A stretch of 64,000 bases of DNA from Owenia fusiformis (lineage: Eukaryota; Annelida; Polychaeta; Sabellida; Oweniidae). A model generated the notes under the pieces. That model was not told the origin of the DNA, did no database searches, and was given only the letters and a program-made list of their open reading frames with translations. A program made the translations under genes and the position numbers. Shown here piece after piece: positions 1-51,400 of this stretch. Where the stretch lies: assembly GCA_903813345.2 (NCBI GenBank), contig CAIIXF020000006.1:6748989-6812988 (forward strand). Direction: 5' to 3'. The first letter of the stretch is position 1, and each line of letters begins with the position of its first letter.

Positions 1-16
1 CCGACCGTACATAACT

Positions 17-272
17 GCTTTATCCTATACCAAGTAGAGTTTTCAGTAGTACAAGGTGTAAAAAATAAACAAATCATTCATATGCAAAGTCATTTTATTG
101 CATTTCCACTTTTTGGAAGCGGGAAGATACGCCCCGAAGCGGGAAGATATGCACCGAAGCGGGAGATATGACGGGAGATGTGGAGGTTCTTGATATGGAA
201 ACCTCAAAATCAGGATACGGGATATATCTTACCAACTTATCTCCCTAAAACCCTACTTGGCATAGGATAAAT
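17..272. mobile_element. TIR segment of a two-part palindromic element (window-edge copy)
   Basis: TTTATCCTATACCAAGTAG at the left is repeated inverted as CTACTTGGCATAGGATAAA at about 248-268. The preceding hairpin arm (positions 1-14, ending CATAAC) is cut by the window edge. The interior has about three tandem copies of a roughly 20-bp GAAGCGGGAAGATA unit (115-170). The sequence through the left arm matches the copy at 9550-9601. Confidence 0.6.
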
Positions 273-1543: not shown

Positions 1544-2099
1544 GTCAATATATACGAATCGAATGTATTCTCGTGTGCATTACAATATCCCCATTGAAAC
1601 ACTGTTTTTGGCCTGCAATGGACGTATAATGAATTAGAATATGAGGCCGTGTTATCATTCTAATGTAAAGTCATGGTATTTACTGTAGTATTGGGTTGCA
1701 AGTTAATATCAGATTCAATGCAAATTAATCATCTAATATCAGATGCGCGATCAGTCCAATAATCTAATTTCAGGTCATCAGTTCGATATCTAGCACTTGT
1801 TCTAACGACACGGTATTACTAGACTATCATATTATAAATACACACACATATAAAACAATCAAACTGGTACACGATATAAGCACGACTGCTCTTTCAATTG
1901 AGTATAAATGTTGATAAACTTACCCGGAAGCCAAGACATACACGTTTAGACGATGCTATTTTCAGTTCAGTGTAAGAGTAAATGCCCGGATATCGAGGCT
2001 TTTTCGTGTAAAGTTTTAACCAAGCATCTAAAATCGGGTTATATTGCGTGTAGAATTTATCGATATCAGGGCCGCTACATGCCAGTGAATAAACATAAG

Positions 2100-18400: not shown

Positions 18401-21400
18401 AACACGACAAAATGTCACCACCTGATTGTAAACCACAAACAATTTGTTACATGTTTGTGACAACATCTCAAAATTAACGAAAATTCCCGTTTTCCCGATC
18501 CCCCATTTACGGCCCCTGGGGGTCAGGGTGAAAAACCCAGGATATATGTGAAATAGATAGATGATGTTAATATACTACCAAAATTTCAAATAATAATATT
18601 TGGTTTAAAATGAAAAACAAAAGATTTTTGCTAAAAATTCCTGCCATTTTTAAACTGGCGGCCATCTTGAAAGAAAATCTGTCGACTAGTATTCAAGTTA
18701 TTTTCCTGACTGACTGACGGACGGACGGACGGACGGACGGACGGACGGACGGACGGACGGACGGACGGACGGACGGACGGACGTAGGGCTTCACTATATC
18801 CCTACAGAACTTCGTTCGTTGGGATAATGATTCAAGTAATATGATGATCTATGACTGATCAGTTATTGCAATGTCACTTTTTTTTGCTTTCTTACTTTTC
18901 AATGTTAATATTGGTTATCATGAGGATATACGGTGTAAATGACTCCTTTGATCCCTTGAATAATTACTGGACATCCTAAATGATATGCTACTCTTTCAGG
19001 TACAATAGATGACTGGAAAACCAAGCTCACAGTTGCCCAAAACGAAAGAATTGATGCACACCTAGGACCAAAATTGAAAAATATAGGACTAAAATTTCCT
19101 TCAATATGAGGGTTTAAAATAATAAACATATATGCAGAGTGCAGACTATTGTAATACCAATGAAATTGTTTAGTAAAAGAATGGTATTCTTAGTTTGGTC
19201 AACCTTTTTATTGATATGTATATTTGTAACACATATCAATTATTAAGGTTACAGACATTGTTCCGCATGCACATTTGTTTGCCAAACTTACAAGTAAGAC
19301 TATCAATTGTGCATCTGTTTTGCTAATTTCTGGATAACATGAACATCAACATCATAGATGTATACTCCATGGTATACTTGAGACATCAAGATTTGGAAAT
19401 GAGGAAATAAACCATAGATTATACACCCCCAAAATGCAATCTGATTTTCAATGCCGTTTTGCAAATTATATTGGTTGTGTACAAAGGTCTTGATACTAAT
19501 ACTTGTATAAGTAGATGGGAAGAATTGAGTAAGATTTATAGGATATCCTATGATTTTGAGGAATATCATTTTTATCTACGAGGTGATATTGATATCTGCA
19601 CGAGAGAGCGAAGCGAACGAGTGCATATATATCAATATCACCGAGTAGATTAAAATGATATTCTGAAAAAAATCATAGGATGTTCTTATTATCCTACACT
19701 TACAAGGAGTGTACTAAATGTATAATATCATTGCAAAATGAATTTCATGCCAAATAGAGTCAATTTGGCGGGAAATCAACAAGCGGAGTATATCGTCACA
19801 ATATCCTCCGCATTTTGGGTTTTCCGGAGTATATCGTCACGATATCCTCCGCCCGGAGTATATCGTGACGATATCCTCCGGATATTCATTTTGCCCATAA
19901 ATATCAAATTTATTTTTTAATGTTATTATACATTTAGTACACTAAGTGTAGGATAAGGATTAATATTATTTCCTGATATACTATGTGCTATAACATGGTT
20001 CCATTGCTTTAATGAGGGGCTTCTCTGTAGATGAAAGTAACACCTCCAACAGAATTTCATTTTACATATTTTTCAATATAGCCATTATACTTTAGGATAG
20101 CACAACGAAGCAAGGATACTACTCATGTATGAGAAAAATTGATTCATTTTTGTGTCCACCATATTTGCCAACTATTTTGTCAAAAGTGATTTAAAACATC
20201 TTGGTGTGCACATGCCAATGATCTCTTAAGTTTTAATGCATTTTCTACGTGAGTTATTTTTTCTCACGAAGATGTTAACACAAAAGAAGCATTGAATAAT
20301 ATTACATTGATTGTGCAAATGACATGTTGCTATGTTTGTTCTTTTTTCTTCTTAAATATGCATAGTGCCTCTTTAACAAGGTCTGAAAGAAGTATGCAAC
20401 ATACCTATGAGATGTTAGAATAATTGAGCGTCCTCCCTTAACAAGGTCTAGAATAAGGTCCCAGAGAAAACGCTTGGAGTGTGGGTCCATCCCCGTAGTA
20501 GGCTCATCCTGCAACAGAACACAAAAGAGCATTTAATGAAAAAGTCAACCTCAAGAACATTATTGTCCCCTTTTCAGACAAGTCCTAATTATAAACATAA
20601 GATTTTTAAATCTAATCTAAATACATAGTTCCATTTGAAACTTACCAAAAATATTACTGGGGGATTTCCTAGTAGAGCAATAGCAGTTGAAAGCTTCCTT
20701 TTGTTCCCTCCGCTGTACGTCCCTGATGGCTTGTCAGCATACTGGGAGAGAGCAAGTTTGTTCAGGGCCCACTCCACAACCTACATGGCATAAATAACCA
20801 CAGTAGTTTATATAAATGCACTTGATCATACCTGGGGCCTTATGGATTTTGGGGCACCTCCTGGATGATATGACCCTTTCCAAATTGGTTTTACTAGGCA
20901 TGCTTTTAAAATGAAGCCCACTACAGCTGTAGTTCTCTTGTTCTCAATTAGCTTCAATTTTAAGCAGTAAGTCCCATTTTTTCCTGTTTTAAAAAATCTC
21001 CTTTAGGCCATCTTCACTATCTCACCTGTGAAGTTGTCCAATAACTAATGCACCAAACAGTACATAGCTAGCTGCAAGGGAATTGTAAGTTTTAAATTTT
21101 CCATTTGAACAACTGAATACATCAAAGGTGTTCTCATCTTGCTACCTCTTTCTTAGTACTGCACAGTTACATTTAATTTTCCTACTATGGACTTAATATA
21201 AACCACTAGATAAATTAACAGTAATGACATCACACCTGTTTCTCTTCCTTGAGGGGAATACCACGTAGTCTAGCATACAGCGTAAGATGTTCACGTCCTG
21301 TCAGTTCATCATACAAGGCATCAAACTGTGGACAATACCCTACATTCTGCTGGACTTTAAGCAAGTCTTTCTGAATGCTGCAACATTAATAGTACTGGTT

Positions 21401-24400
21401 ATAGTATAGATTATGAAGGTTTAATCATTTGTGATTAGAACTCAAGAATCACAGTTCTTGAATAGTATTTTTAAAGGTTTTTAAATCAGTTCATGTGTTT
21501 GAATATTCATATGCATTTGTAATTTAGATCTACAGTATATTTTTAATAAATGCCCCATGGAAATTAGTTTTAATGAGCAAATAGGCAAATAGTTCGAGAT
21601 GATCTTACCTGTGGCCATTCATGAAAGCATTTCCAGAGGTTGGACCCACATCACCTGTCAGCATCTTAAATGTGGTGGTCTTTCCAGCCCCATTAACACC
21701 AAGCAAGCCAAAACACTACAATAACATCAAGGCATAATACATGTTATTATATTCCAGTTAAATCAAACTAGAAATATTGTTTTACCTCTTCCTTTGTGAA
21801 ACATTTGCAAAAAAATATGGATATTTGGGTATCATCAGTAACCAATAGCATTTGATTTTGTTATTACTTTCCATATTACATGTAAACATTTCAAAGATGT
21901 TCTTAAAAAAGCATCGAGAGACAAGTCAACATTGCATTATACATTGATATGAAAAACTGTAATGATGGTACACATGATGTAGGTAGTTGTCAATTCCTTT
22001 GCAACAACTTTTTATAACATTTTTATAAATCATATATTCATAATGATCAATTAAATGCAATATATATTAAAAACATTAAACATTTTAATGCTCTAACCTC
22101 TCCCTGGGGAACACCAAGGCATAATCGATCAACAGCAAGACGGCTGCCAAGTTTACGTGTGTGGTACACCTTGGTCAAATTTTCCAATCTTATGATGTCA
22201 TTCCTCCCAGTACCTCGTAAAACACGACGTCGTTCCGCTGCAACGTCAGCATCTTCTCCATTCACAACTGGAATATGAGTCGACACAGGAAGGCACCTAG
22301 AAAAAAAGAATCTTACATTATCAAACATAAGACCTTTGGGTGTAAGCATAATACACGAATCGAAACTATAACTTACATCATAGTTTAAATCTTAATAAAT
22401 CATGATACGCCCAACTATATGAGGATTGATCATAAAGTATTCTTAATTTCAAAAAATTGAATCCTTAATTTCTACTTATTTCTGTTTTAGTTTTGTCGAG
22501 GGAAAATTATTTTTAGGATACATTTTAAACAGCCTAATATATTCCGGTAACTTAAAAAATATCAAAAAATTGGTTAAATTATGGTTTTCTTACTTTTGTT
22601 TACGAAAGAAGTTGTATTCACAGATGAGTGTAATAATGAAGAAGATGCAACCCATACAGGCCATGGCTACAAGATTACGGGCCATAAGGTTCCACTCAAA
22701 TGGTGACTTCATCTGATCGTACTGACCTAAAATTGAAGAAAATTAAAGACTAATGCCTATTATATATTGAGGTACTGCTAATAAGGATTAATAATTAACA
22801 CTTTGATGGCACATAATTAAATAATTTTACATTTTAAGTCAATTGAACATTAATTGAATGTATCATAATTGAAAATATTATTGGATTTTCAAACTGATAA
22901 ATCAATCAAAAATGTTACCAGTTTTGAAAAAGTAGTCATTGCGGTATTCATTGAATGCCACATCCATGAGACCACGTCCAAGGCTGTAGTTTGGAAATAG
23001 CAGAAAGACACACTTTAACACATCATGGACTCTACTCAGTTCCTGCAAAGTAATATTAAATGATCATCATCTCTCTCCACATACTGATCCCAAGGAGAGC
23101 ACCTTGGGATCAGTATAACATACATTTTCTTTAAAAGATGGCAGCATCAATTCTGATGAGAATGTGAAAGTTTCTGGTTTTAAAGGGTTCCGATAAGCTT
23201 CCCGTATAAAAACAATATGGCGGCACCAGGCGAATCAACTGGATCAGTCCATTTTTAAGAAATAAGGGGAGTTCTGTAAAATCCAGTTTATTGAAATTGT
23301 CTTTGAGATAAAGTAATCCGTTTATAATGATTTTGAAAACATTATCCATAGAGTGATTGCGTTCAAAGAATATGTACAACAGCCAATATTAATCCTTGTA
23401 TTAGAACTGCTTTGTTTCATTTGTAGGATATTTCATATGCCAAGCTGTGTGCTATTACGTTACGGGGAAATTAAGATGTAAATTTTTCCTTATTATACAC
23501 AAATAGAAGATCCTGAAACTTCACCCATAAATGTGGAATTGATTTGTCAAAATAAAAATCACCCTTTTATAAATGTGTGACGATCTATAATTATACTTAT
23601 GCTATATAAAAGTAAGAGGTGTTGACACAACGACCCAAAATCATGTAAGCTAATAAGAGAGGTTGTTACCTACCTTATCATACTGGAACAATTCAAGCAG
23701 GAAGCTGGTGACAATACATGTGATGCCAACGAACAGATTGATAACGATGAGAAAGATGTAAGCACTACTTGGCTCCTCAAATCTAAATGAAACTGGGTAC
23801 ATCATTGGCGTAATGGACCACCTGAAATATAAAGTAGATTTATATTTCCCATAATGCAATTTATCAAGCAAACGAATACTGGGAACATCATTGGTCTGAA
23901 AGATTCTTTGAAACAGTTCCTTTCCCATAATGCAATCTATCAAGCAGACAAACAGTGGGTATATCACAGACATGATGGATAAGATACAATTTATTTCACA
24001 TATTCTATAAAACAAAGATCCATTTATACTGAATACTATTCATAAGATATAACTTTTTCTTACCCATATAGAAGAAAGAGTGATATGACAGCAGGAAAAT
24101 TGTTGGCAGACACGTAGGCAGGAATATCAAATATCTTGAGTATCACAATACAGCAAACGGCAGGAATGACATAATTGCACTGAAATAAATATAGCATATT
24201 TACTCAGAGGAATTTAATATGCATTTTATTCTAAGGAAAAATATGATATTTCCAGGTAAATTGAGAGTCCAAGAAATATGTACATTTTAACGCCCCGGGA
24301 ATAAAATTCATAAGGAACAATTGATATCATAAGTTAAAATGCATACATTATTTCAGGTATAAAGTACGTAATATCTCATTCTTTTTTCTCACAATACTCA

Positions 24401-27400
24401 CATATCCAGCCTTACATTTTCATAACACATTTAAGGCACTTATGACAATATAAATATAAAGACTACAAGTTGTGCATGTAAAATGTGTCTTTTGTTTAAA
24501 TAAAACCTTTGACAAAAAACTTAAAAATCATACTCGAAATAGAATTATTTAGGAAATATAAAAGTATGCTACCAACTTACCATATCCCATATATAGTTAG
24601 CGAGCCAGTAGATGACAGGATTGATTCCACTGACAAACTGCAAATGCTTAGCTTTGATGGATCTCTCATAGACCAAGAAGAGCACGAAGCTGGCAGGCAC
24701 AAAGGACATGGCAACAATGATAAAGATGGAGATGAGCGCATCAGAGCCCTGGAGGATGACATCCATGGACAATTGGTTGTTGGTGTTATTCATTGGGTGG
24801 TTGATCACAGTGATACCTAGAATATTAAACATAAACATACAGTAAAACCTGTGTATATGGAACACCTATAGTACTTATAGTTCCTTGAAGACAGGTGTTC
24901 CTTACAGAGAGGGTTTATTAACATGTCAGTTTATGGGGGACTTGGTGCTTTTGAAAACTGTTCCATGTAGAGAACTTTTCCCTACAAGGAGGTGTTCAAA
25001 CATACAGGTCTACAGGTCTATTGTATTAGTTCTGTGTATTACATGTACGGTTTAACATTGATGGAAACTAAAATTGCTGTGTTGTTCTAATTACACTAAT
25101 GTCCATGAAACATCTCTAAAAAGAAGACCTGAGAGTGTTTTATTTTTAGTCTCATATGTACTTTAGGACTTTTGTGAAAATCATTGTGAACTTTTATTAC
25201 CATATGCAGCAGGGTTGCCCATGCTCTTAGGCAGATTAGCTCGTAGGATTGCATTGTTCAGAACATTAAGGTATGTAGGCACAGAATGGTAGCCTAAAAT
25301 CATAAATTATACATTTAGGATTAAATCATATGAAATAAAAAATATTTTTCATTAAGAACAATTAAAATGCAATTATCTTTTCTGTTACATGTGTGAATAT
25401 TTTTGTATCAAAAACATCATTTCATTCTTCATTTCTGATCATCAGACTATGTTTCCTCCTAAAATGGGTGCAATATTATCATTTACACAATGTTGACCTG
25501 CTTTTGTTGTTTTCAAGTGGGTACATATATTTTCAAAGAATACTTTGAAACATTGCAATTGAAGAATTCTCTATGACAAAGAGAAACCCAAAGGAATTTA
25601 CCTTTGTTGAAGTACCAGACTTTAGAGACATTCCTGACTGCGAGTTTCTTAAACAGAGCAGGAGCAGATTCACCAAACCCAAGAGGCACATAGTCCCTTA
25701 CATGTCCAAATGCAAATGATCCATACCTGGAATTAAGGTAATAAACATTAGCAATTGCTAATTAGTACATTTAAATCCAATAGCCTCAATTTGAAATAAA
25801 ATAGCCTAACCTACCTGTGCAGTCGATATTCATCAGTTGTTTTGAGGTAATACTCAGATTCATTCTGCCCTGTAATATCCACGAGAATATCACTCGTCAC
25901 ACAACTGAACCGAGGAGCACTCTGGTACCCATAATTCTCACAAATAAATCCACTATTATCTTCAGCACAAGTGCATGATGGGTAATAACGAGGTTCTGTT
26001 TTCTTTGGCTCGTCAGATTCAACTATTGTTTCATTGGTTAATAATCTTCGCGACCTCAGTAAGTTGGACTCCTTTGGTACAGGAGGGACAAAATTCTCTA
26101 GTGGTAGCCCTCTCTCGAATACATGCTGACACTTGGGCTCAAAATATTTCTGTAATAGATGAAAGCTACTTGTGGTGTTAAGAGTCTTAAGAATGTCAAC
26201 ATCGAATGAATTATTGAAAGGCTTTTTAAGGACGCAAGTTGCCCCAACACCCGAGGGTAGATGGAGTGTCTGAATAAGAGCCTCTGGGGATGTTTTAGCG
26301 TATCTCCCTTTCAATGGGGGTGCTCCTTTACCATGGGCAGCCACATTTGAGAATGGAATGAAGTTTCCACGAGGCTGGGTGAGGTTGAAGTACTGGGACG
26401 GACTGAGCTCTAATGATGGGAGATCTTTCACTTGAGGTGCCGTCAATGCGACTGTCATGGCAATACATATAAATAATGCTGGTAAGAGGATTTGAGAAAA
26501 TAGTCCCTTCCAGTTGCGACGAATGTAGAAAAATCGTTTAACTATGATGGCAATAAATTGTTGGAATAGCAGCTCTTTCTTGGTCACTTTATACGATCCT
26601 TTTCCATCACAAATCACGGGCTCTGCAATGCACAAATATTTTGATAAGTAAACATAAACATTATATACATTTAAATGAAAAAGACGATCTCGAAAGAGCC
26701 AATAAAAGACATTTACAAAATGCTACAAATGGTTACAGAGTTTGTTACAGACTGCGGCTGACACCAACTGATGACACAAGTCACAAACAACATTTATGTG
26801 ACACCCCCCCAGATGCATGGTCGTCAGCACAAGACAATGATAATAGCCTGTCAAACTTTTTGAAAGTGCGATAAAAACAGTGATTATTACAATTTGCAAT
26901 ATGTCACCACTTCTTGGTGGTGACATCAAAACCATCTATCCTGGGTGATAACAACATACCTGGATTTGCTGCAGTTGGATCAAATGTTGGGAGGCGGGAA
27001 TATCCTCCATTTGTTTGTCCCATGGGCTGGCCTACAAGGGATTCATTATCACTGTCATGATCATTTATCCTTAGAGGCAAGGTGTCACCATTGTTTTGGA
27101 TTGTTCTTAATGGTACATGATCACCACTATTTCCAATTGTTCTCAATAGCATGGTGTCAGACTGTCCAAGTGTATTAGTAAATGAATTTGAACTGCCATT
27201 TGAGAATTGTCGTCTATGTAGACTACTTAGGAGGGGTTCATCAGCAGGCATGGGGAGTCGCAAATCATCTGGGTGGCCTATGTCTGTTAACATTGCACAA
27301 TCTTCTACTGCTTGATCCCTCTGTGCTACTTCAGTGTGAGGTTTATCTATTACACTATGCTCTTGGTCTTTAATAACATGCTCCCTGTCTTGTGCTTTAT

Positions 27401-30400
27401 TTTTCTGAATTTTAATTGCATTTTGCTCATTGTTAACTCCTACATTTTCACCCTTGTATTTTGGTATGTCTTCCCTTTCTTGGCCCATACCTGCTATTCC
27501 AGAATCATGGGCCTCCATTCTAAATCCTAATGGATTCATGTGTCTAAAATGTCCAGCCGAAGTGTCTGAATGTTGTCTCCTGTGTCCACGTCTCAAGCGT
27601 CTCACTTGACTATGTTCCATTGTGTCCTGGTTACCATGGTTACCACTCACAATTCCAATATTTTCCATATGTAAATTATTGTAATTATTTCCACCTAGAA
27701 GACCAATGGTTGATGACACGGAATGATTGCTTACATCAGAGCGCTGTCTGCGGTGACCATTACTATAAAATCGAGTTGGTAGATGGGTTAGGGATCCCAT
27801 ACTTCCATGACTACCATCAGAAAATTGTCTTCTGTGAGAATAACGGAATGGTAAGTTTGTTAGAGACTGCTGAGAAATGTTACTGACATTAGAAATATTT
27901 CGTCGATGGCGATTTGATGGGGCACGTGGCTCCCCCTTGTCTAGCGAGTACTGCTCTAAGGATTTTAATTCTGCTTCTTTTTCACGCTCCTCCTCCAAGG
28001 TGGAAGATTGGTCATTGACCTTGAGGAAAACCTCCTCCAAGGTCGTATCCATGACACCAAAACTGCTCAGATGTAACTCATCCAAAGACTTCTCAAGGCC
28101 AGTGAATAGTTTTTCAAAGTGTCCTTTCTTAGCCTCCTGAAAAAGAAATGTGAAGTTTTAGGTGTTAAAGTTTTCAAAAAATTTACATTGTTTACATTCA
28201 TAAAAGATTAATTTGAAGGGTTGTAACTTGTAAGATATTAGCATAAATATATATACACATACCTGGAATGGCAAGACATAGTGCAGCTCCTGCTGTGTTT
28301 CTGATTGTAAGTAGGCACTCTGCATGTGTTTGTTGATGAATGTAGTTACAGCACTAGAGTCACATTCTGTATCCAATGAATGTACAGGAGCACTGTCTCT
28401 CTCAAATACAAATTCACTGCCTTCTCCTTGAACAAAAGTGAAAATGTATTGTAGATTCAAATGCTTATGGATGTACTATCTGTCCCAAGTCATATTCTAT
28501 AGGAAGTAAATGTACTTAAGTACTGGAGCACCATCTCTCCTAAACACAAACTTATTATCATCATCTAAAATAGATTTACAAGACAGGGACTCCAATAGTT
28601 TTTGATACTCTGCAAAAAGATTGGATTCTTTTCATAATTATGTTAAATTGTTCACAGTGGCTAGTATTTTATGTTATGAATGTCTAATTAAATACCTTCT
28701 TCATCAATTTGCACCATCTTCTTCACCAGGATGAGGTGATAACCGTCTCCATATGAATTCTTCAAAAATATTGGTGAGCCGCAACACTTCAGTTGACCAC
28801 TAGAGATGATAGCGATACGGTCCCCAAGTAGATCAGCCTCATCCATGTGGTGAGTGGACAATAGAATAGTACGTCCTAAAACATGTAAATAATATCTAAA
28901 AGCGAATTGCCCAATGTATTTTTTATGACATAAACATCTTTCCATGTAATAAATTTAAAGAAACATGTAAAACATAAAATTTCACTGAAGGTTAATTTTA
29001 GTTCATGAAAAAATCATGAATTACCCATTACAATTCCCATTAAGTTTTTATTTTATCAATAAACGTTTCAAGTAAACGCTTTAAATTTAAAAATGAAAAT
29101 GTAACTCCTCCCTAATTACCTTTCTTGTATTTCAACAAAAGATCCCAGATAGCTCTACGGGCATAAGGATCCACCCCTGCAGTGGGCTCATCTAATATCA
29201 CCGTCCTGGATCCGGCAACAAACGCTATAGCAACTGATAACTTCCTCTGCATGCCACCTGAGAGGTTCTCAACATTGGTCTTGCGTTTATCAGGAAGTCC
29301 TACATCTGCTATGATGGAGTCCATCTCTCGGTTGATGTCTTTGGTCTTCATGTCTTTCAGCCTGGCATAGAACCACAGATGTTCCTCAACAGTCAATCTG
29401 AAAAGTTAGAACAAAGACAGGTTAATAAGGAGATTTAGGATATATTGAAAAAATACAAGTCAAGAATTGCGAGGTCTAAAGGGTAAGATGCCATATTTGG
29501 ATTGAGATTGCCAGGGGTAGAGCTAGAAATAGCGAAGTATTAACAGAAATAGAGTAATTCAATAATTTAGATAAAATACTAGATGAAAATCATAAAACAA
29601 ATATTTCATTGAACTCAAGCTCTTACTTGTCAAACAATACATTATGCTGTGGACACATTCCAAGACTTTTACGAATTTCTTCCATCTCAGTACGAATGTC
29701 CTTGCCATATATGGTCGCATATCCACTGGTTGGCGGGAATAATCCAGTTATGATTGACCTAAAAAAGATTATATACTACACAGTTAAAAAACTTAAAAAT
29801 CAAAGTGATCAGAAATACTATGTTTGTTAAATTCAACTCAATGATTTGTGCGTAAATCTTACATTATGATTTCCCTATACAGGCTATTTTCTCTTTATTT
29901 CAAGCTGAACAGGTGAATGGTTATGCCGGATTTTTTATGACAAGATCTTAATTATGTGATGCAATTCAAACAATTTGCACTTCTCAATTAATTTATAAAC
30001 CAAAAGGTTTGCTAACATTGTGGTTGTTTTCCCTGCTCCATTGTGCCCAAGGAAAGAGGTTATCTGGTCTTCATAAAGATTCAAACTCAGCTTGTTCACA
30101 GCTTGTTTCCCATTCTTATACACTTTAGAAAGGTTGTCAATCTCCAATCCCAATTGCAGGTGTGTGGGCTCTGACTCCATATATATCTCATTATGTTGTT
30201 GATTGACAGCACATGCCTGGTCCTCCTCCATGACTGACAAGTTCCTCCGCCCTTTGAGACAGTTTCTCCAACTACATTGCTCCGCCTCTGTCTGCACATG
30301 GCCACACCAGTAGGAACGCAGAAAAGGAAAGTACCATGGTTTTGGTAGACCATATGATCCTATAAATTATAACGCATACAGCAAATCCAATAACATTATT

Positions 30401-33400: not shown

Positions 33401-36400
33401 TACAAGGTGAACGAAAAAGAGAAGTTTTAGATACAGCATGGTTCATAATTAGAGGTTATGTCACTATCGTGGCATATATGCCCGAGGTCTCAGTGATATA
33501 TGGCCCGACCTTGGGAGGGACATTGATCTCTGAGAACCGAGGGCATATGTGCAACGATAGTAACATAAACGATTTATAACATACCTATAATGATGTAGAC
33601 TGGTCAGAGAGTACCATTTTCTTAAAGAATTGACAAACAAATGGTTTGAAAATGATTGAAATGAGTTTAGAAAAATTGCTCGCGCAGTTTTATCTTCGAT
33701 TGATTGGTTATGACGTCAGCGCCTTGACCAATCAGAAAGTTAGCGGGCGCGGGCTTTTCAAAACTTATATTGGCCCGCCGTCTTGTGTACACTTTGCACT
33801 GTACATCATCATAGGTATGTTATAATATAGCATCTGTTTTACTATAATCTGTTTTTGGCCTCATCAATGTTATCAAATGCTGAAATATGTTTTGTCATCA
33901 GGTCTACTTTAGTATAATTGATTTAGAGTCCAAAATCAAAATGTTTTGATTGTTACCTTTTTCATTTGCTTCAAATTCCTTGCTGTTGAGTTCAGAAGAA
34001 GATATGTGCGCAATCTAGAAGACACATTCAACCATTCCTCAGCATACTGACTGATAGTATCCACCAGAGCAAACGATTCATTGGCCTGGAAATCAATAGA
34101 AAAACAATTGTTTATTATATACACAGTATATATACAGTCAGGATGAAGTAGGAGTTCCATTTAGAAGACACATTCAACCATTCCTCAGCATACTGACTGA
34201 TAGTGTCCACCAGAGCAAATGATTCATTAGCCTAGACAACAAAACAACACTAGTTTGTTATTGTAAAATTATTATTTGTATTTATTTTATATGTCATTGT
34301 ATATAAGTATAATTCATGAGAATGTATTTGAGCAACCATTCCTCAGCATGCATTTAACAATGCTTATTTGTTATTGTGCATAAGCACTGGCTGCCATGAG
34401 AATTGTACCTCAAACAGAAATCTCAGTTGTAAGCTTTACTGATTATATCATAAAAAAGTTCCTCACTCATTGTTAGTAGAGACCACAGACTCCAACTGGC
34501 ATGGCATGAAATTGTTTTCATATGAAATTACCAACGCCCCATACCCACTTCTGTTGTCCTCATTCTTACTTACCTTAGTCATAACTGAGCTCACAGCTGT
34601 TGTGTTAGGGGCATACAGGACCTTGGGATTGCTATACAACACATGGACTAAGATTCCAACATCTCTCTGTTGTTTCGAAGACAAACCCATATCCTCTACA
34701 AAAGATAATATTACTATTGATCAAGATTATGAGACACATTTGATGGACAAGGTTTTGACTTCAATTTAAAGAATTGGTGCCATAGGACTCAATACTTTGT
34801 TAGTGATTCGATGAAAAAGGTTCTTGTATGTTAGCCTTAAATTGAAGCTGACAGGTCAAGTTATAAGGCTATCATACAACAAGTAAATACATTATTGAAA
34901 ACAATCACATTCCATTGAGTTGTGTGCATGAATTCTTTTCCCATAAAGCAAACATTTTGAACAATACTTATTGAAATTCAACCAGAAACTTTTTCGCAAG
35001 GTAAACTCAGGGAATATTTCGACATCAATCAAAAGGAACTCCTTATATTCACATAAGACATCATATAAGACCCGCATAAGTATCTACCATTTGGCTAACT
35101 AATTGATAACATTTGAACAGATTTTCACGCAAGCTTGTGCTTCTCTCATTAAAATTTTCTTAACATTATTTTATTAATTAAACCATGCTCTGTCGTTATA
35201 TATGGTATGGGTATACAATGCAATGTGGCCTTAGCCCTTTATTGGCCAAAAAGTGATGTAGCAAGCTAGCAATGTGTGAATCATTGTTTCTGAATTAAAA
35301 ATCTGCATAAATTTTATAAGGAAAAATACAAACACAATAAAATCTTATATCATTGTATTATGAGCACAACTAAATGTTTATTTTGTACATTTTTCATATA
35401 TTTTTCTAATCTATTATGTTTTATAAGTATTCAAAAAAATTTTTTTTGATATATCTGACTTGATGAAGATATGTGCTTACACAAATATGTTTTACTGTGC
35501 TTATGTATCACTTTATATAACAAAATACTGATTTGAATTAAAGGTGTAAGCCTGACTCAACAATGAATTGAAATGGATGATCATCAAGAACAATAAAATG
35601 AGAAAAAATATAAACACATGAACTTGAACCACATGTGAAATTCAAAAAGGAAAATTGTCTTTATAGCTTAAATCAACATGCCATATTGCATCAAAGTTAT
35701 TGTTTTAATACCAATTTGGAAATGAGTTTGCTGCAACTTATACTGACATAAAGAATCCACCTCTCATATCAATATATAGGGGTTATGCACTGGGAGGTTT
35801 TGGATACAGAGAATATCCCGAGGGATATACAATATATCTTCCCGAGGGACCGAAGGGACCAAGGGAAGATATATTGTATATCCCAAGGGATATTTCCTGT
35901 ATCCAAACCGACCGTGCATAACTGTTGTATTCCATACCTGATGAGGTTTGAAATAATAAGCATGTATCCCATATGCTCTGGTGTGTTTACTTGCAAAATA
36001 TGTTATTTTTTTCAAAAAAATTTTCACATTTTTTTGCATAATTTTTTTTTCAGAATTTTTTTTCAAAACTTTTTTCAAAATTTTTTTCAAAAATCTTTAC
36101 ATAATTTTTTCCACAATTTTTTTTCAAATTTTTATCAAATTTTTTTCCCGAATTTATAAAAAATTTTCAAAAATTTTTTTTGAGCGGGACATACGATTTA
36201 TATGTCCCGGAGCTCCGTTGGAGCGGAATAACAAAAAATATCTGCCCGGATATGGAATATATTCCCGGTTGATATGTCCCTGAAACCTCATCAGGTATGG
36301 AATACAATAGAGAATGTGTCATTTCTGAAAGCATACTTGGGACAAAGAATGAGTATATTTTGAAAATGCTTATAGAAATGCACCCCTGGCTATGCTGGTT

Positions 36401-39400: not shown

Positions 39401-42400
39401 GGAAGCATTTATCGGTTATGTTGTCGTTAAGCTGAAATGTGTCAGTGAACAGGCCTCTCTGCATTTTCTCAAGAATCCCCTGCAATGATAAAGATACACA
39501 TTTCCAAGCTAAAGCTGGCTTAATTAGCAATTTATCCACCGCATAAAGGTCAATGTGAAATTATGCAAACATACATAAATGATCAGAACACAGTTCACAG
39601 TTACCATCAATAATTTGGCATAATTCCACCATATCAAGTTTGGTATTATCAATACATATATGATCAATTAAAGAGGAAGGACTTTTATTTCTAAGTAAAC
39701 ATGAAAATGAAGGCCCAGTGCAACTATCTAAAGTAGTCACAGAGCTTAACGCATTTTGATTGAGCACATTATTTAGCATTTTACTTTGAGTATTGAGGCC
39801 TTTTTCCAGACATCTTGGACCGTTAACTTGGGCATTCATATCGCCAAGTACCTAACATGGAGAAATAAGTTATGCAGTCTGATAATTGGACTAGGTGCTC
39901 CTTGAAAGAGTTTGAGGGATAATTAGCAGATGGCAAATACTCACTAAATATGTACAAGGAAGCGTTATCATTGAGTTTCAACTCAATGCCCATAATCCTG
40001 TCTGATTCAATGCTATTAAGTCGAGAAACATTAGATATTAATCATTTTTTCCATAAAGCGCAACGCCTGCCTCCTTTTCCGATTCTACATGGATTGAACG
40101 GATCAAGACTAGCATCTGATTTTGCAAAACAATCAAACTTTGCATTGATCGAATTCAAGAAATAAAGATTATCGTTGAATGGCTTATGTTCCAAAATAGC
40201 ACCAAGTCAATGTCTAAATTATGGTGCTCTGTGCAGAAGTAATCTGCAACTTATTAAATCACTTTTATGTACAAGCTTGTTTAATTGCACTCATGCATCT
40301 ACTGTGATTGTAATGCTGCTAACCTGTAATAAAAACTTCCAATGCTAGTCAAAACACCATTCGTATTCCAAGAGAACAAGTTTAGATGTGTTTTCATAAA
40401 GTGGGGCGAGAGAATGCAGAGTGTATATGTGACTAAAAACAACAGTAGAATAGTTCTATTCAGATTCCTGTTGGACCTGGTTATATCAGTAAACATCGCA
40501 GCCGATTTCTTCATGACATCACTTGTTTGAAAGCCGACAACATATGCCTTCTAGTCATCATGAGCATCAACGTTAAGCAATTTTTGAGCGAGTGTTAGTG
40601 GTATTAAGGAAGCTGATCATTGTAACTGTGATATTCTTCTCAACTAGGTATTGCTTTACCTTTGGTTCAGAAACATTCAGATCAATTCAGCGATGACGTG
40701 AGATGGCATGAAATTCATCATCACTCGACTTAACACAACAAAATAATTCTACAAATGACAAAATTGGGGTATAAGTAATATTCTATCATATTTACCTGAC
40801 TATTTCTATATTGCTAATATTATTTAACAGTACATGTATTGTTTGACAAAATAATAACCATCATCAAATAAATAAAATAGATATTAAATAATCTTACATT
40901 ATGAGCAAATTCCTTGATTCTCTGTTGAGCAGATGTCACATTCATGTCCCCAAGGTGGAACTGAAAGAAAAATTGAAAGTGAGTTGTAAGTTTATTCAGC
41001 ATGTAATGGAAATGCTTGCTCTCTATATTTCTTAAATAAATTATTAATTCTTGTTCCTTATTATATCTTTCCATAGGTCAACATTATAGAGGTCATATGA
41101 GGTTAAGGTCATGTTTGAAAGGTCAAGGTAATTGCAGATAAGAAGTGTACTAAGGGCTCTCCCATTTAAATGTGGAAGTGATTTGTCAGTTATAATCAGC
41201 ATGGCATTTCAATGTTAAAAATATGAAAACAAATTTGTTTTTTTTAGCACTGTAACTTACAATGTTGATGATGTTGTTATCTGATATGCTTGCACTGAGA
41301 TTGTTGGAGAGCTCAGTGAGCTGGGTGCTGTTTAACCCACATATGTACGCCTGACTTTTGGACTGCAAGAAGTAATACATGTGAATAGATTTTCCATACA
41401 TCTGCAAATTAGCATGCAGAAAGGTGCCACAATGTTATTACATGTTTGGGGATTTGCATTTCTGAATCGCAGATGTTAACACAAATGTTATTGCTATTTT
41501 CAGTTGCTGTTTATTTGTATATTAGATTCATAAGCATGATGAGACCTTTTGTTAAGTGGCTGTTAATTCATGAACATAATAGGTCAGGATCATATTCTAA
41601 ACAAATTTGTAATGAAATATATTTGGTAATAAATTCACTTTGACTGAATTTTAACTTCAAGTGAATTATAATAGGTGCATTCTTAAAAATACATATACAA
41701 ACATGTACTTAGAATTTACTATAATCTTACATGAAAACTCCTACCCCTCCCTCCCCCACACTTATCCCATTTTAGGTACCTACCAATGGTAAAGCATCCT
41801 CTGGTTTGGCGGGAATGAGCAGACGTCTGACTTCTATCTTATCACAGGCAACTTCATGAAGTGACTTTGGAGACAGTAGCACCATCTTTAAGAAAATAGA
41901 TAAACATTATTTAGTTGATAAACTTGATTAGTTTATAGAGATCACCTATACCCTATCGAAATCTCATCAAAACACACATATTACTTGGTGATCGGTGGTT
42001 GGTGATTGGCGGGTGGAGGTTGGTGGTTGGTGTCTGTAACAAATTCGTATAACTTCCAATAACTTCTCAATGTAAAAAAAGGTTTAAAAAAAGTCAAAGA
42101 GGTATTTTTTCAACTTGCTTCAAATCAAATCAAATCCTTCAATCATCCTTCTCAAGGTCAAAAAGGTCTTTTTTCAACCTGCTTCAAATTGACCAATTTA
42201 TTTTTTCAAAACCATCTACATGTTCTCAGAAGTTGAAATCTGACTTTAGATTGAACTCATAATATTGTGAGCAACTAGGTGGTGACATTTTGTCATGTTA
42301 ATGCCTTGTCTGTATTAATATTACATACCTTCAACATATCTACAACTTGGCTAGGAGATAATGGTCCTGATGTTCCTTTTTCTCTTAACCCTAGCAACTG

Positions 42401-45400
42401 TGTCAATATACCAGAAGCTTGAGATATGCTCTTTGATTGGCTATCACCACTAATAAATTCATAGATGGCACCAGTGATTAATTCTGGTAAATCTTTATGT
42501 GGTGTGTCATGGATATCTGTTTTGAGCAGACGGTTTCCTGTATCATCCAGTAGATTGTCACCAAATAGCATCCTGTAAATCTGAAATATGAAATTTCCAA
42601 TAACAATATTATACAATTCAATAAAGGGAAGTAGGTCAGTATTTATATGGACTTTTACACCATCCCCAAACATAACATCCATAAATATGTATGGATACCT
42701 TGTCAATAAGATAAAATAATACGATTCAACAAACTCAAGCAATCTTTATGTTTCATCAAGTGACAGTTCATCAAAATAGTATAATAAACGTTTGCAGTCA
42801 TATTTGAATTGCAAACACAAGAATTAAATCATAGAAATATGAGGGTGAGGGACTAGAATGCTAATAATTGATTATCTTGGGTTTATTAAAACAAACTACA
42901 ATGTAGTATGCTATTAGTGTTAATTACACTGTACTGGATAAAGATGGTATATTCTTTCATGTCCTACAATAGCAGCCACCACTGTTAATATATAACATAG
43001 TAATAATACAGTCAAAAGCTCAACATCAAGAACTTCTCCAATTAAGCTGATATTTTTCTCATTTACATGGCCAATGGATGCATTTTTGTGTGGCTGTGCA
43101 CCAACATTCTTCTACCAATTACAAGTTTCTGTTTTGCAACTGACAATATTTTTCTTGAAAAGGAGCTGATAGAAAGCTACATGTTTTCTCATAATGGGGT
43201 GCCCCTGCTGTGTGAATATAGTCTGTCATATGAGGAATGTCTTAATGAAATTGTAAGTGTGAAACATATTGGAATTGTAATTAGATGAACATGTAGAAAG
43301 TGGCTTGTATAGCTCTTTTCAGGTACTAATCGAGTGAAAGCCTGTGCCTAGGTGCATGAATTCATCCTAAACATCCTGACCCTAAACAACATGTTACACC
43401 CCTCCCCTATTTCCTTACCTTCGGATTTATATGGCGTCCCCTCCCTACTCCAAAGTGTACATTGCCAAATTATCAAAATTGAGACATCTACATATGGGTT
43501 ATCTTATTTTACACATAGGTGAAAACAGTTTGACACAAAAACTTAACTTGTTTTTTTGATTCTCAAATAATTTGAATGCAGCCCCTACATCTATCTCCCT
43601 TACCTCTGATGTGTTGACTGTTGATGCCATAAGAGCCATAGCCTCATCACGAGGCATACTGAGATTATGCATTAAAAAATCATCTACAGAGACTGGATGC
43701 GAGAAGATCTTGTCCAATGAGAAATCTGAAAATAACAGTTGCATCGATTACTTTATACACATAGCTTAGAATGTGCAGGATTCTTTTATAGCAACCCAAA
43801 GGTGTCTCTGGAGAAATGACCAACTGCAGAGCATAATGTAAAAGGCTAGATACAGACATGAAAAAGAGTGTGATAAATGCAACGCCAAGTGGAAGAATCG
43901 AACCCAATACCCACAGATTCAAAGCCTGGTGCTCTACCAATTGAGCTAAGAGCTCAAGCTGTGATATAACTGGTATTATGCTGACGAGTGATGAATCATG
44001 GTTTAAAACTGTTCACACTTCTTTGATAAATATTCTTCAATGAATGTGTAATAAACTTATGATTATTGCTTTCAACAACTTTTGATGGAGTGTTCTACTC
44101 TGTAATTGAAAATGAAAAATGTAGCTTCAGGCAGATAACCTTTCCCTTTGAAGAGTATGTCACCATAAGGTTAACACGACTTGTTCCCTAGAAGATAAAC
44201 ATTATCACCATGGCGATGTCTTCCCCTGTGCCTGATCATTATATTTTAAAATAAATCCTGGTGATACAAAGGAAGATCCATGCAGCTTTGACTTGAGCAA
44301 TAATAACGGATACGAGAATAAAGGCCTGAATGTTCAACGCAATTAAATCGTTGACAATCACTATTCAGCGGATTCTATACAATTTAAGAGGAAATAAAAT
44401 GTAATGTTTCGGAAGGTAATGTCACCATCAACTAGGAATTCATAATATATGGCTAAAGGGAGGAATTGGTTAAATTTTCGTTGAGGATTTTTCCCGAGTG
44501 GGCACATATAAAATATTAAAGGATTATTCTAAATAAGTTCAAAATACCTATTTTAACTTCACCAACGTTTGGGATTTTTAATCAGCTAATAGTAATTTTG
44601 CACTTCAGTAAGAATAGGTAACTGGATAAAGGCAATCACAAAATTGCTAAATGTGAACATAAGCATAGAAACAAGAAGTAATATTGAAATTGATATCAAC
44701 TCAATGATCAAAATCATTATAAAAATGATTATTTTTAACAAAATGCTCAATAACCTCAATGATCAACATTAACACAATTCAAATCACTAGCATTGTGATC
44801 ATTGGCAACATAACAATCATTATTAATAATTCAAACAATGCAATCATTTTCTAATTTACCTGATATATTGGTGTAATTTACACAAGCGGAAAAGGATGGT
44901 ATAACATGGAATAAAAAATATATTCATTGCCTTGGTCAAGTTGACCTAATATACAAGTTTAAAAGGGTGAAATTGCCCTGTGATAAAACTGATAATAGGA
45001 CGGTTATTATTTATCACAAATGTTAATGGTACTCTGTAACTCCACAAGTTATTGAACAAGAGCAGAAATTGTTCAAGGAAATTGGAATATTTCACAAAAA
45101 CATATATTATTTATAGAAACTATATATGACATTGAAAAACAGAATACAGGATTGTATTTATCATGACAATCAAGTTGGAAAGAGCATAAAAATGTCTGAT
45201 AAAGTGGAAAGATTGATTGTCAACAGATCTTGTTATCTTGGAAATCAATGCAAAGTTTTCTGGGGTATCAAATCAAAGCAAAATCAACTTCGCAATTGCA
45301 TTGATTTTTTGATGGAAACCTTATGGGTATTTTCTCTTAAAAAGAAAAAATTATGCCCATTCTGATACTCAGCACATGTTCTGTTTTGCAACCAGAACAA

Positions 45401-48400
45401 CGGCAACGCCAAAGCGTAGCGAATCCCATCAAACAGAAATGGCTGGCATTTTTACAAACGAAATATATAGCAAACATCATAAAACAACACACCAGAAAGG
45501 CCACCATTTTCAAAATGGTTGCTCACTAGCCAAGTTATCATCAGAAGAAATAATATGCTTTTAAGTAGCCACCTATAAAATCTTTGAAAAATCGCATACA
45601 TGTACTTGTAAAATAACACACATAAAAATGGTGGCCATTTTTCAAAATGACTGACTACTCCCCAAAGTTTTATTAGACAATGTGCCATGCTTAAAGTATT
45701 CACATATCAAATATGAACAAAATTGCTCCACTACTTTTCGAGTTATAGTAAAAAATGTAAAAATGACAGCCATTTTTATAAAATGGCTGCCTACTATCTG
45801 AAGTGTCATGAGACAGTGTGCAAGGCTCATGAGTATTCACATATCAAATATGACCAAATCGCTTCACTACTTTTAAAGTTATAGTAAAAAACATAAAAAT
45901 GGTGGCCATTTTTCAAATTTTTTTTCAAAATGGCCGCATTCTACCAAAAGTGTCATAGGACGGTGTGCCATGCTTATAGTATTCACATACCAAATATGAA
46001 CAAAATCGCTCCACTACTTTTCGAGTTAAAGTAATATACGTTAAAATGGCGGCCATTTTGAAAAATGGCCGCCTTCTACCAAAAGTATCTTTATGCAGGG
46101 TGCAATGCTTATAGTATTCACATACCAAATATGAACAAAATCGCTCCACTACTTTTCGAGTTATAGCAAAAATCGTAAAATAACGAATAAAGGCCGCCAT
46201 TTTTCAAGATGGCTGCCATGTGCTTCTTTAATGTCTACATTTATAGCTTTATTAATGTCCTTCATAATTTTTTTACATTTAAAACATATTGCTATTACAG
46301 TTTTACATATTGCACCTAAATTACTGTAAAATCGGCACTAAAATGGCCGCCATTTTGAATTGAGCGGCCATTTTGAAAATCGGCTTTCAAGCAGAACTTC
46401 TACCCCCATAGGGTATATGTGTACAAAATATGAACAAAATCGGGCCAACGGTATTTGAGTTATCGCCCGGACGGACGGACAGACGGACGGACGGACGGAC
46501 GTACGTACGTACGGACGGACGGACGTACGTACGGACGGACGGACGGACGGACGGACGGAGGCGTTCCCTATATCCCTCCGAACTTCGTTCGATGGGATAA
46601 TTAGCAATAAAAAGGAACTGGTAGTAGGCTGATATCTCTAATATCATATGTTGGAATTTTTCCAATTCCAGCAATCACATGATCATTGATCATCATTTCT
46701 TTACTAAGAACCAATATTATTCTGTGATACTAGTAAAACAAGATATAATTATCATATTACATCACTGTAGTGTTAATTTTATGAAAAGAAAAATACTTTT
46801 TTCCTTCCATGGAGGCTCAACCTGCTTGCCATCTAGATGTTGAATGTCCAATAATATTTCAAATTCCAAACTAATTATTATGAAGATCTCGTGATTCTCG
46901 CCTCCATGAGGGCTTAATGCAAAACTCCTTACACATAAAGATCTCATCGTGAATTATTGTGATTTATGGATTATGGCGACGGCTTTTGTGAATGGATTGT
47001 GACCCTTTGAAATGCCTATGGACTTGGAGACTGGATTTTATCTATCCCACATCATTTGAGACTGAATGCTCTATCTTGTATGAGTACTTGTATCTGCAAC
47101 TATTTTTGAGGTTATGAGTATTGAATATCAATTTCTCATTTTTTCTTCAACATGTATTGTAATGACTTCAGTATAAATGAAATGTCCCTTGGTCTTCTGG
47201 TCTTGGATTGTGATATTGGTTCTTGAATGGTGGGGGAAAGGGGGTATTAGACATTGTTTCTTTTCACGTTAGATCATGGTTTTGTGCTATATGGGGTCTG
47301 TTTTTCTTGACTGGTTCGCACTTAGAGTTTGCTTTTTCTTGCTAAGTTCCATTACAACTTTTCGTCCTTTCCCTTTGGCACTTATGCTTATATATTCAAA
47401 GAAGTTTTAATAGTAAACCTCAGGGGTCATATTAGAGGTGAAAAATCATCCACTAATGAGAAGTTATTAATTTAATATTTTGCACAGTGAATGCTGATGT
47501 GCGAATCATTCATAACCTTTGTATTTCAATATATATAGTAGCAATGACTTAGCTAATAAGACTATAGCAATGTACAGTAAAACCTGTATGAAAGAAATGC
47601 CTTTTGTCTTGAAAATTGTTATACTTGGAATAGTGTTTAACTAGTGGAGGTGTTCTATGTTAAAGAGGTGTTCCATTTTATAGGTATTACTGTATATAAT
47701 ATTACATTGATAATCAGAAAAAGATATATAATAGGGAGTTTAAGCTTGCATATAAAATCAAAACCCCAACCTATATGTACGACCAATCACCCATACAAAT
47801 GCATCACTTAAATATTTTCTGTTCAAGTTTAGGTTGTGAAAAACATTGCGAGCTTAAACTCCCTATTATTACATTGATAATTAGAAAAAGATATCATGTT
47901 GATATAATGTCAGTCCAGTATTGCCCCCCCCCCCCTTGCATTATGAAATGGCCAGAGTCTTCTGGCTCTTGATAGGATGAATTTATTGAGGGGTTCACAT
48001 TAAAGGATTTACTAAGCAAGATCTTATGAATTAAACACTACTTTGCCAGATTTATGACTATTGACTAGAATGCATTTGCACTCAACAGGTCCCTGTGACA
48101 TTATGCTCTCTCTCATGAAAACTCACAATTCTACGCATCCAAACATTTTATATAAAATGGAGTATATTACAGAAAATATAAAATATTCTATGCCCAAATA
48201 AAAATGTAAAAAATAGTTTAATGAGTAATATTATCTTTGGGCATTGAACAGCCTAAAACACAAATGCAGTAAATAAATTATAAGGTCGTTCCAACAAGAG
48301 ATTGTAACAGTGACGTAATGGTACAGTGCTACAGCGGTACATGGTACTTACAGATTAAGCTTGATTGATAAATTATACTTTGACCTGAAATATTAATGCA

Positions 48401-51400
48401 TGTAGCACTGCGATGATTTCATGATTTTGTTTGCATATATTATGTTTCATTATAAAAGTATGTTAAACAATGTGCATTATAATAGTGACTAAAACATTGT
48501 TCTTTAAATCTTTAATTAGTTCTTTAATTGAAGAGGCCCATGTAGACAGATGAGCTTAAATGAGGGATATTACTACCTTCATTTCTATAATTTTAGTTGA
48601 AAATATTTATGAAATTAATTTCAAATTTCAAAATGTGTCATTTGTTACAAACGCAGTCTGCCAAACATCAACCACCAAACACTAACAATCAAACAATGTC
48701 CACAAAAAAGTGGGAAACTGGTGACAATATGTCATCATTTTTGGTTACCCTGGATCTCCATTAGCTGGCCACACTACCCTCTTACTACTGTAGATAATTT
48801 ACATTTTTGATGTTCATACGATCTTAATAATCTTCAATGTAGTTTATAGCATGGGAGTTTAGATGCCAATTGGATGTGAGCTTAGTTATAGTGATTAATT
48901 AGCAGTTATGTCCCTATCATTGAATATATGCCTAAGGTCTGTCACCAATATAGCCCGAGCTTGCGAGACAGACACACCAAAGGCATATATTCAATGATAC
49001 GGACATAACTGTTGTATTACACACTTTTATATCATGGCTACGTTATATCAATGACGCCACGTGTCTGTGTGCAAGTGAAATTAGGAAGAAATGAAACATG
49101 ACGTCCCGATGACGTCATAAGATTGTCATGGTAAAAGGTTTGGCGGCTATACAGGAATATATAGCCGACCTTCAGCTCCATTGACTTCAATACAAATGCT
49201 TCGCTGGGTATGTAATACTATATAATATTGCTGCATTCTGACTGTATAGTCTGGTGGATTGGATATAGGCTTGATCAAAGTCTAATTTAGGAGCTTATAC
49301 CAAGTGTAGGACAAGGCATTAACATACAAAATGTCACCACCTGCCATTTGTAACAGACACTGAATACCAGATGCAAACTGCAGCCACATAACAATATGTC
49401 ATAACAACACATTTGGTGGTGACATAAAAACTGTAAAGAGAGTGGCCAAAAGGCAAGTATATGGTTTACAGAGAGATTGTTGAATAATTGTAAACCTACT
49501 TTTGGGTTACCCAAAACTCGTGTATGTACATATAGGGCAATGCATTTAAAGGATAAAAGGAATAAATGTGCTTCCTGCAATTATCTTATCATAAATAAAT
49601 ATAAATACAATATTAATATTCACATCTAATTCAACTTGGAGTGGTCCAATTATTCCAGCGAACTTGATAACTTACTAAATGATTATCTAGCAATTAACAA
49701 GGCAAACCACACACAGTCTGGCATTTGTATCAAGTAAGGACATACATGCTTAATCAATATCTTTCAATGGGGTGAACTGTTTTTATATTTTCTATTCATG
49801 GCATAAATGGGCTAAATTGAAAAATCCTGAACCAGGACCCACTATCCATCAATCGAGAATGAAATGAAAAGATCCTAGATTCTAACTCTTAAATAATTTG
49901 ATATATCAAAATTCAGTAAAGAATGAGTGTGAAACATATTTATTTTAGTTTTTCCACCAGGATTCACAGACAATTCAGATCTGCAACCATAAGATCAAGG
50001 TCAAGTGAGGATTAAGGCCCATTTTCCTTGGATTAAAAACAGCACAGCATTTAAACAAATGGTTAGTGTACCCAATTGAGATTTTGAAAAGAGCTTAAAA
50101 GCATTCATCTGAAAATCTGTTTGTACACTGTATCTAAACTTAAAAAGCATGGAAATTAAGCTCAAATTAACAAACTCAATCTCTCTGTGGATAATAAATA
50201 AATTAGAACTTGAAAAAGATACCTTGAGCATGAGTGAACTTGTCATGGATGGCTATTGGATCCTCTATAATGCTACGATACATGTCAGGTATGGTGTCCA
50301 TTTCTTCTGGGCTGAATCCTGGGTTGAAGAAGTTGTTGTGACGTGATACATTGTCAAACTGTTTCAGGAATGTTGGCACTCTACAAAATGTCACGGTTCA
50401 ATGAACTAAATTCTTGAATCAATAATGGTGAATCTCTGGTATTGATAAATTGTCAAAATGCTTATATTAAGGAATGTTGACAGATTGTAAGTCCCCAGAG
50501 ACTGTGTTCATTCAGGGGAATATGCACACTCTGATTGTACCATAAACTACAAGAAGCTCATCTAGAATTAACTTACAGTATGATTACATCAAGTTATTGG
50601 GAATTGCTCACAGCCTACTTCTAACCTCAATTTACACCAAAATTCTATAAAAGTTGCTTATATAATAAGCGAATAGCTTGCATTTTAGAAATCAAAAGTG
50701 CATGCGCCTTGAATAATTTGCCAGGTCACTTCCTCACTAAGTAAGCAGTTTTTCACAATTTTTAGAAAAGAACCTTCGTGTCATCTCATTTTGATGGTGG
50801 AAATGGCAGCCTGTTAGAGAAATTGTGTATTTTAGAGACAGTGTCCTTTTAATAGACCAGGTCAATATTACGATACTGTAAATGCATTCCACAAAATCAC
50901 TTCATCTAATATGCAAGGCATTAACATACAAAATGTCACCACCTGCCATTTGTTACAGATGCTGAACACCAAACACAAAATCAAAATCAATAGAAACAAA
51001 AATTTTAACAGATTTTTAACACATCCCTCTCAATGAAATTTAAAATTGCACATTTGGAATTTATACATTGATGGATTAAACTTGTCATTGACAATTTCTA
51101 TAAGACAAAACTAAATTTTTATCTTGACAATCACAAAATATGAATATCTATAGATACGAGATCTTAATTGAGCACCATCAGCCCCTGGGTATGTCTGAAA
51201 TTGTGTTATCATTGACTAAAGTTTATGACTCTCAGAATCAAGCCTTGAAAGTTAATTAAGAGATCCTGATGGAATAATGTGGCTGATAAAGGAATATTTA
51301 ACCCAATCAAACAGGGAAATGTTGGCATGAAATATAACTTTTTCTACTTACCATATACAGTAGATTGAAAATTCTTTATTTTCAAATTCATAATTACATA

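Follow-up and report, generated by a model that had tools for sequence, protein, structure and literature searches.

A 64,000-nt stretch of the genome of the annelid Owenia fusiformis (contig CAIIXF020000006.1, positions 6,748,989 to 6,812,988 of the forward strand; hereafter the window) contains a recurring two-part element, in which a large hairpin adjoins a segment bounded by terminal inverted repeats (TIRs). The units are one element design and not chance neighbours. Judged by their anatomy, they most probably represent rolling-circle transposons of Helitron2/Helentron type that are non-autonomous and similar to HINEs, and their plan appears to fit this class better than the other classes considered. 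The assignment rests on anatomy within one window, and membership of the class is not proven. An earlier note on this DNA had recognised no named family with such a design, but the published anatomy of Helitron2/Helentron elements and HINEs fits it.

Anatomy and distribution of the copies

All six places listed in the earlier note (copies A to F) were inspected, and the whole window was scanned. The plan claimed for them, a hairpin followed by a TIR segment, does recur and is non-random, although only C, D, E and F are complete copies; the edge of the window truncates A, and in B a second, distal TIR was looked for but not found. A composite copy, X/H, was newly added and faces the opposite way to copies A-F. 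The features are as follows, in coordinates of the window.

Copy A, 1-271, minus strand: last 15 nt of the hairpin (1-15), proximal TIR TTTATCCTATACC (19-31) and end of the distal TIR at about 271; the remaining hairpin lies beyond the window.
Copy B, 9478-9601, minus strand: hairpin 9478-9573 and a single TIR at about 9577-9589; 3' end only.
Copy C, 19545-19956, minus strand: hairpin 19545-19681; TIRs 19689-19702 and 19943-19956; a second hairpin, 19823-19882, within the TIR segment.
Copy D, 33455-33825, minus strand: hairpin 33455-33568; TIRs 33574-33588 and 33811-33825.
Copy E, 35782-36307, minus strand: hairpin 35782-35922; TIRs 35925-35949 and 36283-36307, exact over 25 bp.
Copy F, 48905-49221, minus strand: hairpin 48905-49009; imperfect TIRs at about 49012-49025 and 49207-49219.
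Copy X/H, 55122-57679, plus strand: composite; 5' TIR at 55123, central minisatellite at about 55522-56821, 3' TIR 57064-57075, junction hairpin 57062-57293, inverted second half 57281-57628, and remnant of a terminal hairpin arm at about 57644-57679.
Junction palindrome of X/H, 57062-57293, no strand: the arms, of 74 nt, are 96% complementary; each belongs to the TIR-proximal type and is followed by a TIR.

Read on the strand opposite to that of the earlier note, a complete copy starts with a T-rich inverted repeat; an internal segment separates this from the inverse repeat, and the hairpin follows after 0-7 nt. The internal segments vary among copies and often contain smaller hairpins or tandem repeats, such as the central tandem-repeat array of copy X. 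The TIRs are themselves palindromic, with TATNNNATAC as the core of the 5' repeat, and TATNNNATA is present in 11 of the 15 TIRs versus 1.5% of random 18-mers of the window. The 5' ends start with TTTAT, TTAT, TTGTAT or GTAT. At the other end the inverse repeat adjoins the 3' hairpin, with exact TIRs in C, D and E, an exact 12-bp pair in H and an imperfect one in F; taken alone, the arrangement in H and in F has p >0.05 each.

The further particulars of the earlier note fared unevenly. Hairpin ends of the form GTTATG...CATAAC are present in B, E, F and nearly so in D, but not in C. The sequence GCGAAGC, given as an example of the GC-rich core, is the hairpin core in C only, and its complement also lies within the TIR segment of F. 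Nor are all copies as divergent as described, since the hairpins are recognisably related within B/E/H and within D/F. The interiors of the TIR segments are mostly unrelated between copies.

Non-randomness of the hairpins and of their position

A strict scan (loop <60, score >=16) found six hairpins in the window, all within elements, and none in each of the ten first-order Markov sequences used as controls; its low-complexity filter removed no hairpins. These six are the hairpins of C, D, E and F, one within the TIR segment of C, and one (57093-57206) within the larger palindrome of X/H. At a score of 14, 12 hairpins were obtained, two of which (23081-23116 and 34821-34882) are outside the elements. 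Folded as DNA, the hairpins of B, C, D, E and F and the inner hairpin of H each surpassed 200 of 200 shuffled sequences (z from -4.9 to -13.0), including the weaker hairpin of B (z -4.9).

The p values for a TIR start adjoining the hairpin were 0.002 in E, 0.006 in D, 0.018 in C, 0.054 in H, 0.11 in F and 0.48 in B, and the same test on the opposite side of the hairpin gave at least 0.24 in all six. A leave-one-out comparison supported the resemblance of TIRs between copies in six of six cases (p 0.0003-0.008), although this test is imperfectly clean: values of 0.02-0.04 were also obtained for B, C and F on their outer sides, and in H the outer side is a true TIR. Two cruder tests gave weaker results. 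In the first, three of five hairpins had an adjoining exact 10-mer TIR pair, where a random interval would have one with a chance of 11.8%. In the second, 101 TIR pairs were scanned structurally, and an abutting hairpin was flagged at six of them, namely C, D, E and three pairs at 45.5-46.4 kb, but not at F or H. The three pairs at 45.5-46.4 kb sit in a tandem repeat and were excluded from the copies. The array from which they come (45499-46379) is built of units of about 135 bp that are rich in inverted repeats and of the GGCCATTTT type.

Relation to Helitron2, Helentrons and HINEs

The comparisons below draw on parts of the published descriptions. Helitron2 elements have asymmetric terminal inverted repeats (ATIRs) of 8-15 bp, the 5' ATIR being 0-2 bp from the end, and a 5'-terminal T (PMC3627910); the 3' ATIR is immediately upstream of a 3' hairpin, 20-30 bp from the 3' end (PMC3627910, Bao and Jurka 2013). 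The window copies likewise possess a 5'-terminal T and asymmetric inverted repeats, of which the 3' one directly precedes the 3' hairpin. They differ in that the 3' ATIR is about 100-145 nt from the 3' end, and in that a 5' hairpin formed with the 5' ATIR is not generally supported. Compensatory changes and three 5'-truncated Chlamydomonas families are on record for Helitron2 (PMC3627910), and copy B, as a lone 3' end, resembles the latter.

Helentrons and HINEs carry subterminal inverted repeats (subTIRs) of 12-15 bp, themselves palindromic in mite and Culex, and a 3' palindrome; Helentron targets are T-rich and undergo no modification (PMC4067079). Mite HINEs have palindromes of 5-10 bp and a subTIR 38-60 bp from the 3' end (PMC4067079), and central tandem repeats are described for oyster HINEs (PMC7492417). 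Similarly to DINE-1, mite HINE-Mo and oyster Cg_HINE, the window copies have a short inverted repeat at the 5' end and its inverse just before the 3' palindrome; the repeats are palindromic, as in mite and Culex, and central tandem repeats are present in some, as in X. Unlike the mite HINEs, they bear a hairpin of 30-59 base pairs, as well as conserved mismatch loops. The TA...TA flanks of D, E and F differ from the T-rich unmodified sites of Helentrons. Canonical Helitrons (Helitron1) share a 3' hairpin with the window copies, but the latter have inverted repeats and neither a 5'-TC nor a CTRR end about 11 bp from the hairpin; their 3' hairpins end with CATAAC or similar plus three bases.

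Anatomy, recurrence and palindromic repeats are directly visible in the window, and so is a T at a fixed place past the CATAAC-like ends. The letters following the hairpin are CCTT in B, CTCT in D, CCCT in E, TGCT in F and CTCT in X, the fourth base thus being T in five of five.

In the mechanism proposed here, a RepHel protein supplied by an autonomous Helentron elsewhere in the genome would nick at the 5' repeat and peel off one strand. The 3' hairpin and the adjoining repeat would mark the end of the element, which would comprise the inverse repeat, the terminal hairpin and about three extra bases, and the copy would insert at a T. The enzyme, the replication mode and the function of the hairpin are parts of this proposal that we infer. 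Relatives were sought in viral and prokaryote collections by scanning with exact patterns, and three such scans had no hits. One further pattern-scan match (L001), of which 700 bases were read by eye, lacked the anatomy and was judged to be chance.

Insertion sites and alternative explanations

Several observations weigh against the Helentron assignment. The chief point is a TA on both flanks of D, E and F, immediately preceding the 5' TIR and again three bases past the hairpin; this may be a 2-bp duplication, which Helentrons should lack. Against random placements allowed the same offset freedom, TA on both flanks in at least three of five testable copies has a post hoc null probability of 0.0005; any identical 2-mer on both flanks, as seen at matching offsets in five of five testable copies, has one of 0.0035, also post hoc. 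The matching 2-mers of C and X (CT and TT) require a shifted 5' boundary, and neither copy shows TA; in D, E and F an A precedes the TIR. Longer flank matches are AGGAT in C (5 bp, null about 1%), which overlaps its TIR, and ATAG in E (4 bp, null about 4%), which appears after adding three bases. No duplication of more than 2 bp is convincing in D, F and X, which counts in favour of the Helentron reading; in the one-ended copy B none of 6-14 bp was found. In copy C the hairpin does not end with CATAAC, the downstream letters are ATCC, and the T position is not shared. The first 36 nt of the 5' end fold better than shuffled sequences at p <0.05 in one of seven copies (only C; F 0.89), and the first 150 nt beat 200 of 200 shuffles in four of seven, mostly via hairpins away from the ATIR. 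The 3' hairpin is far larger than those described for the Helentron class, and no RepHel domain was detected in the 10 scanned of the window's 12 open reading frames (ORFs) of at least 120 aa.

The TA flanks of D, E and F thus lower the probability of the Helentron assignment and raise that of a group of cut-and-paste DDE-type DNA transposons that duplicate a 2-bp TA target and carry an additional hairpin at one of their ends. In such a group a transposase would bind at the TIR and at the end on the hairpin side, and TA would be left on both flanks after repair. Besides these flanks, the exact TIRs of up to 25 bp and the shortness of the elements, which recalls miniature inverted-repeat transposable elements (MITEs), speak for this origin. 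We nevertheless regard it as unlikely: the proximal TIR is not terminal but has the hairpin of 96-141 nt outside it, C and X do not carry TA, and palindromic TIRs with a one-ended hairpin are traits described for Helentrons in the sources consulted. Moreover, the flanks of AT-rich targets agree by chance oftener than random positions do, and a preference for such targets would make chance matches of TA commoner.

The association of two unrelated repeats, a foldback hairpin and a MITE with its own TIRs, by chance or insertion preference is improbable. The largely unrelated interiors of the TIR segments would agree with it, as would the exact-TIR adjacency test, passed by just three of five, and the three pairs of the tandem array that likewise passed the abutting-hairpin scan, but all six strong hairpins are within these units, and the TIRs are alike and stand on one fixed side. 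It is more improbable still that the hairpins are host RNA structures, precursors of microRNA-like or double-stranded RNA carried in ABCA introns. Their folds are very stable, C lies between ABCA coding segments, and both strands of E gave matches to Rfam mir-944 (46.8 and 45.4 bits); these are, however, below the gathering score of 100, nothing in the window attains the threshold of any Rfam family, and the hairpins are accompanied by TIRs. The mir-944 matches (3.2 kb searched) were judged to be chance, and the microRNA reading was rejected.

The 3' hairpin and its mismatch loops

The 3' hairpin of these copies is of enlarged size (spans of 96-141 nt; 30-59 base pairs in B-F) and bears conserved mismatch loops. 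Seven folds contain ten 2x2 internal loops, and TY faces TY in eight of them: C, D, E (three), F and inner H (two). The other two are AT/CA in D and CA/CA in inner H, and the folds of B and full H have no 2x2 loops. On the opposite strand the TY/TY loops appear as R-A facing R-A, frequently in the form 5'-C-GA-G-3'. The earlier note suggested that the arms are homogenised against each other. This is contradicted in part by the TY/TY loops and by a basal mismatch identical in B and E, all of which would have vanished if arm copying were the full account, and it was rejected as such; simple homogenisation is not the whole story, because arm copying would set GA opposite TC.

Compensatory double changes were counted between related hairpins and compared with a simple independence estimate. 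They amount to four of 36 comparable pairs in D/F (0.44 expected; four broken pairs, nine in gaps excluded), three of 46 in E/inner H (0.52 expected; seven broken, 13 in gaps excluded) and one of 29 in E/B (0.14 expected; three broken, 30 in gaps excluded), where the global alignment is poor. Transition-type arm mismatches make up 14 of 58 in the six hairpins (B, C, D, E, F and inner H) versus 80 of 151 in the controls (Fisher p 0.0002), in simple arm alignments. The controls were eight pairs of inverted repeats from the window that are not hairpins, including three from copies A and X. On the hairpin-first strand, A.G and C.T mismatches stand at 21:4 versus 20:15 in the controls (p 0.047), an excess that comes mainly from C, D and E (17:2; 4:2 in B, F and inner H), and G.T and A.C mismatches (8:6) show no asymmetry; neighbouring mismatches are not independent of one another. 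When folded as RNA, the hairpin-first strand is stabler by 5-9 kcal/mol in B, C, D and E, the other strand by 6-7 kcal/mol in F and full H, and the two are equal in inner H. This preference is mixed and does not point to one functional strand.

In stability, tandem sheared G.A pairs come close to normal pairs. The hairpin-first strand would carry tandem purine mismatches (5'-C-GA-G-3', or AA facing GA), which sheared G.A pairs would stabilise. As a tentative reading, which we hold to be doubtful, the giant 3' hairpin may be a specific, selected and strand-asymmetric structure with recurring tandem purine mismatches, and self-priming fold-back synthesis at it may occasionally lead to rolling-hairpin-like replication; inverted Helentron dimers fused at the hairpin would be the products. 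No Helentron with a hairpin of >90 nt or with tandem G.A loops was found in the openly available literature searched, which included PMC5148889, PMC7492417, PMC4067079, PMC3627910 and PMC5139131.

The composite copy X/H looks like such an inverted dimer, a single case, fused at the hairpin and with its mismatched terminal arm replaced. The TIR plus about 330 bp of X recurs inverted at 57628-57347 (77% over 334 columns including gaps), and inverted copies of a 49-bp repeat surround the junction hairpin. Both junction arms are of the kind that adjoins the TIR in other copies (GTCGG), and the terminal kind of arm (CCTCCC...ATAAC) survives in X at 57644-57679 as a remnant. Alternatively, the structure may have arisen by nested insertion and subsequent conversion.

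The central minisatellite of X (55522-56821) matches the opposite strand of 42079-42316 piecewise, with identities reaching 94%. A short sequence at 55425-55462 recurs at 18391-18423, 49311-49342 and 50908-50944, with 92-97% identity to the first.

Host gene and other features of the window

Three segments of the minus strand (11.9-12.3, 25.8-26.7 and 29.9-30.4 kb) gave matches to ABCA1-family proteins, in order from the C- to the N-terminal side, and the gene belongs to the ABCA family, with ABCA1 as the best match among solved structures. Copy C therefore lies between coding segments. Copies D and E are probably intronic too, as they are upstream of the segment at 29.9 kb, which itself corresponds to about residue 881 of ABCA1.

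An open frame of 802 codons on the plus strand (2089-4497) contains a reverse transcriptase domain (Pfam RVT_1, E 3e-33), with zf-RVT below the cutoff, and resembles a retrotransposon ORF. No match was found for the ORF at 42.3-42.7 kb. Two further inverted repeats were noted: one of 230 nt (9858-10087 and 10771-11000; 77% complementary, 683-nt spacer), possibly a separate TIR element, and one of 140 nt (58230-58369 and 58535-58674; 91% complementary, 165 nt apart), whose plan differs from that of a hairpin plus TIR.

Implications

An apparently unnamed design is thereby linked to a known, hard-to-detect class of transposons. The 3' hairpin of this class may hold several-fold more base pairs than described, together with conserved mismatch loops, and tools built for short hairpins could overlook these. 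If the fold-back origin of the dimer is true, it would offer a testable link from rolling-circle to rolling-hairpin replication in eukaryotic transposons. If instead the TA duplication is confirmed, the copies would represent a cut-and-paste group with a Helentron-like end, which would be still more surprising.

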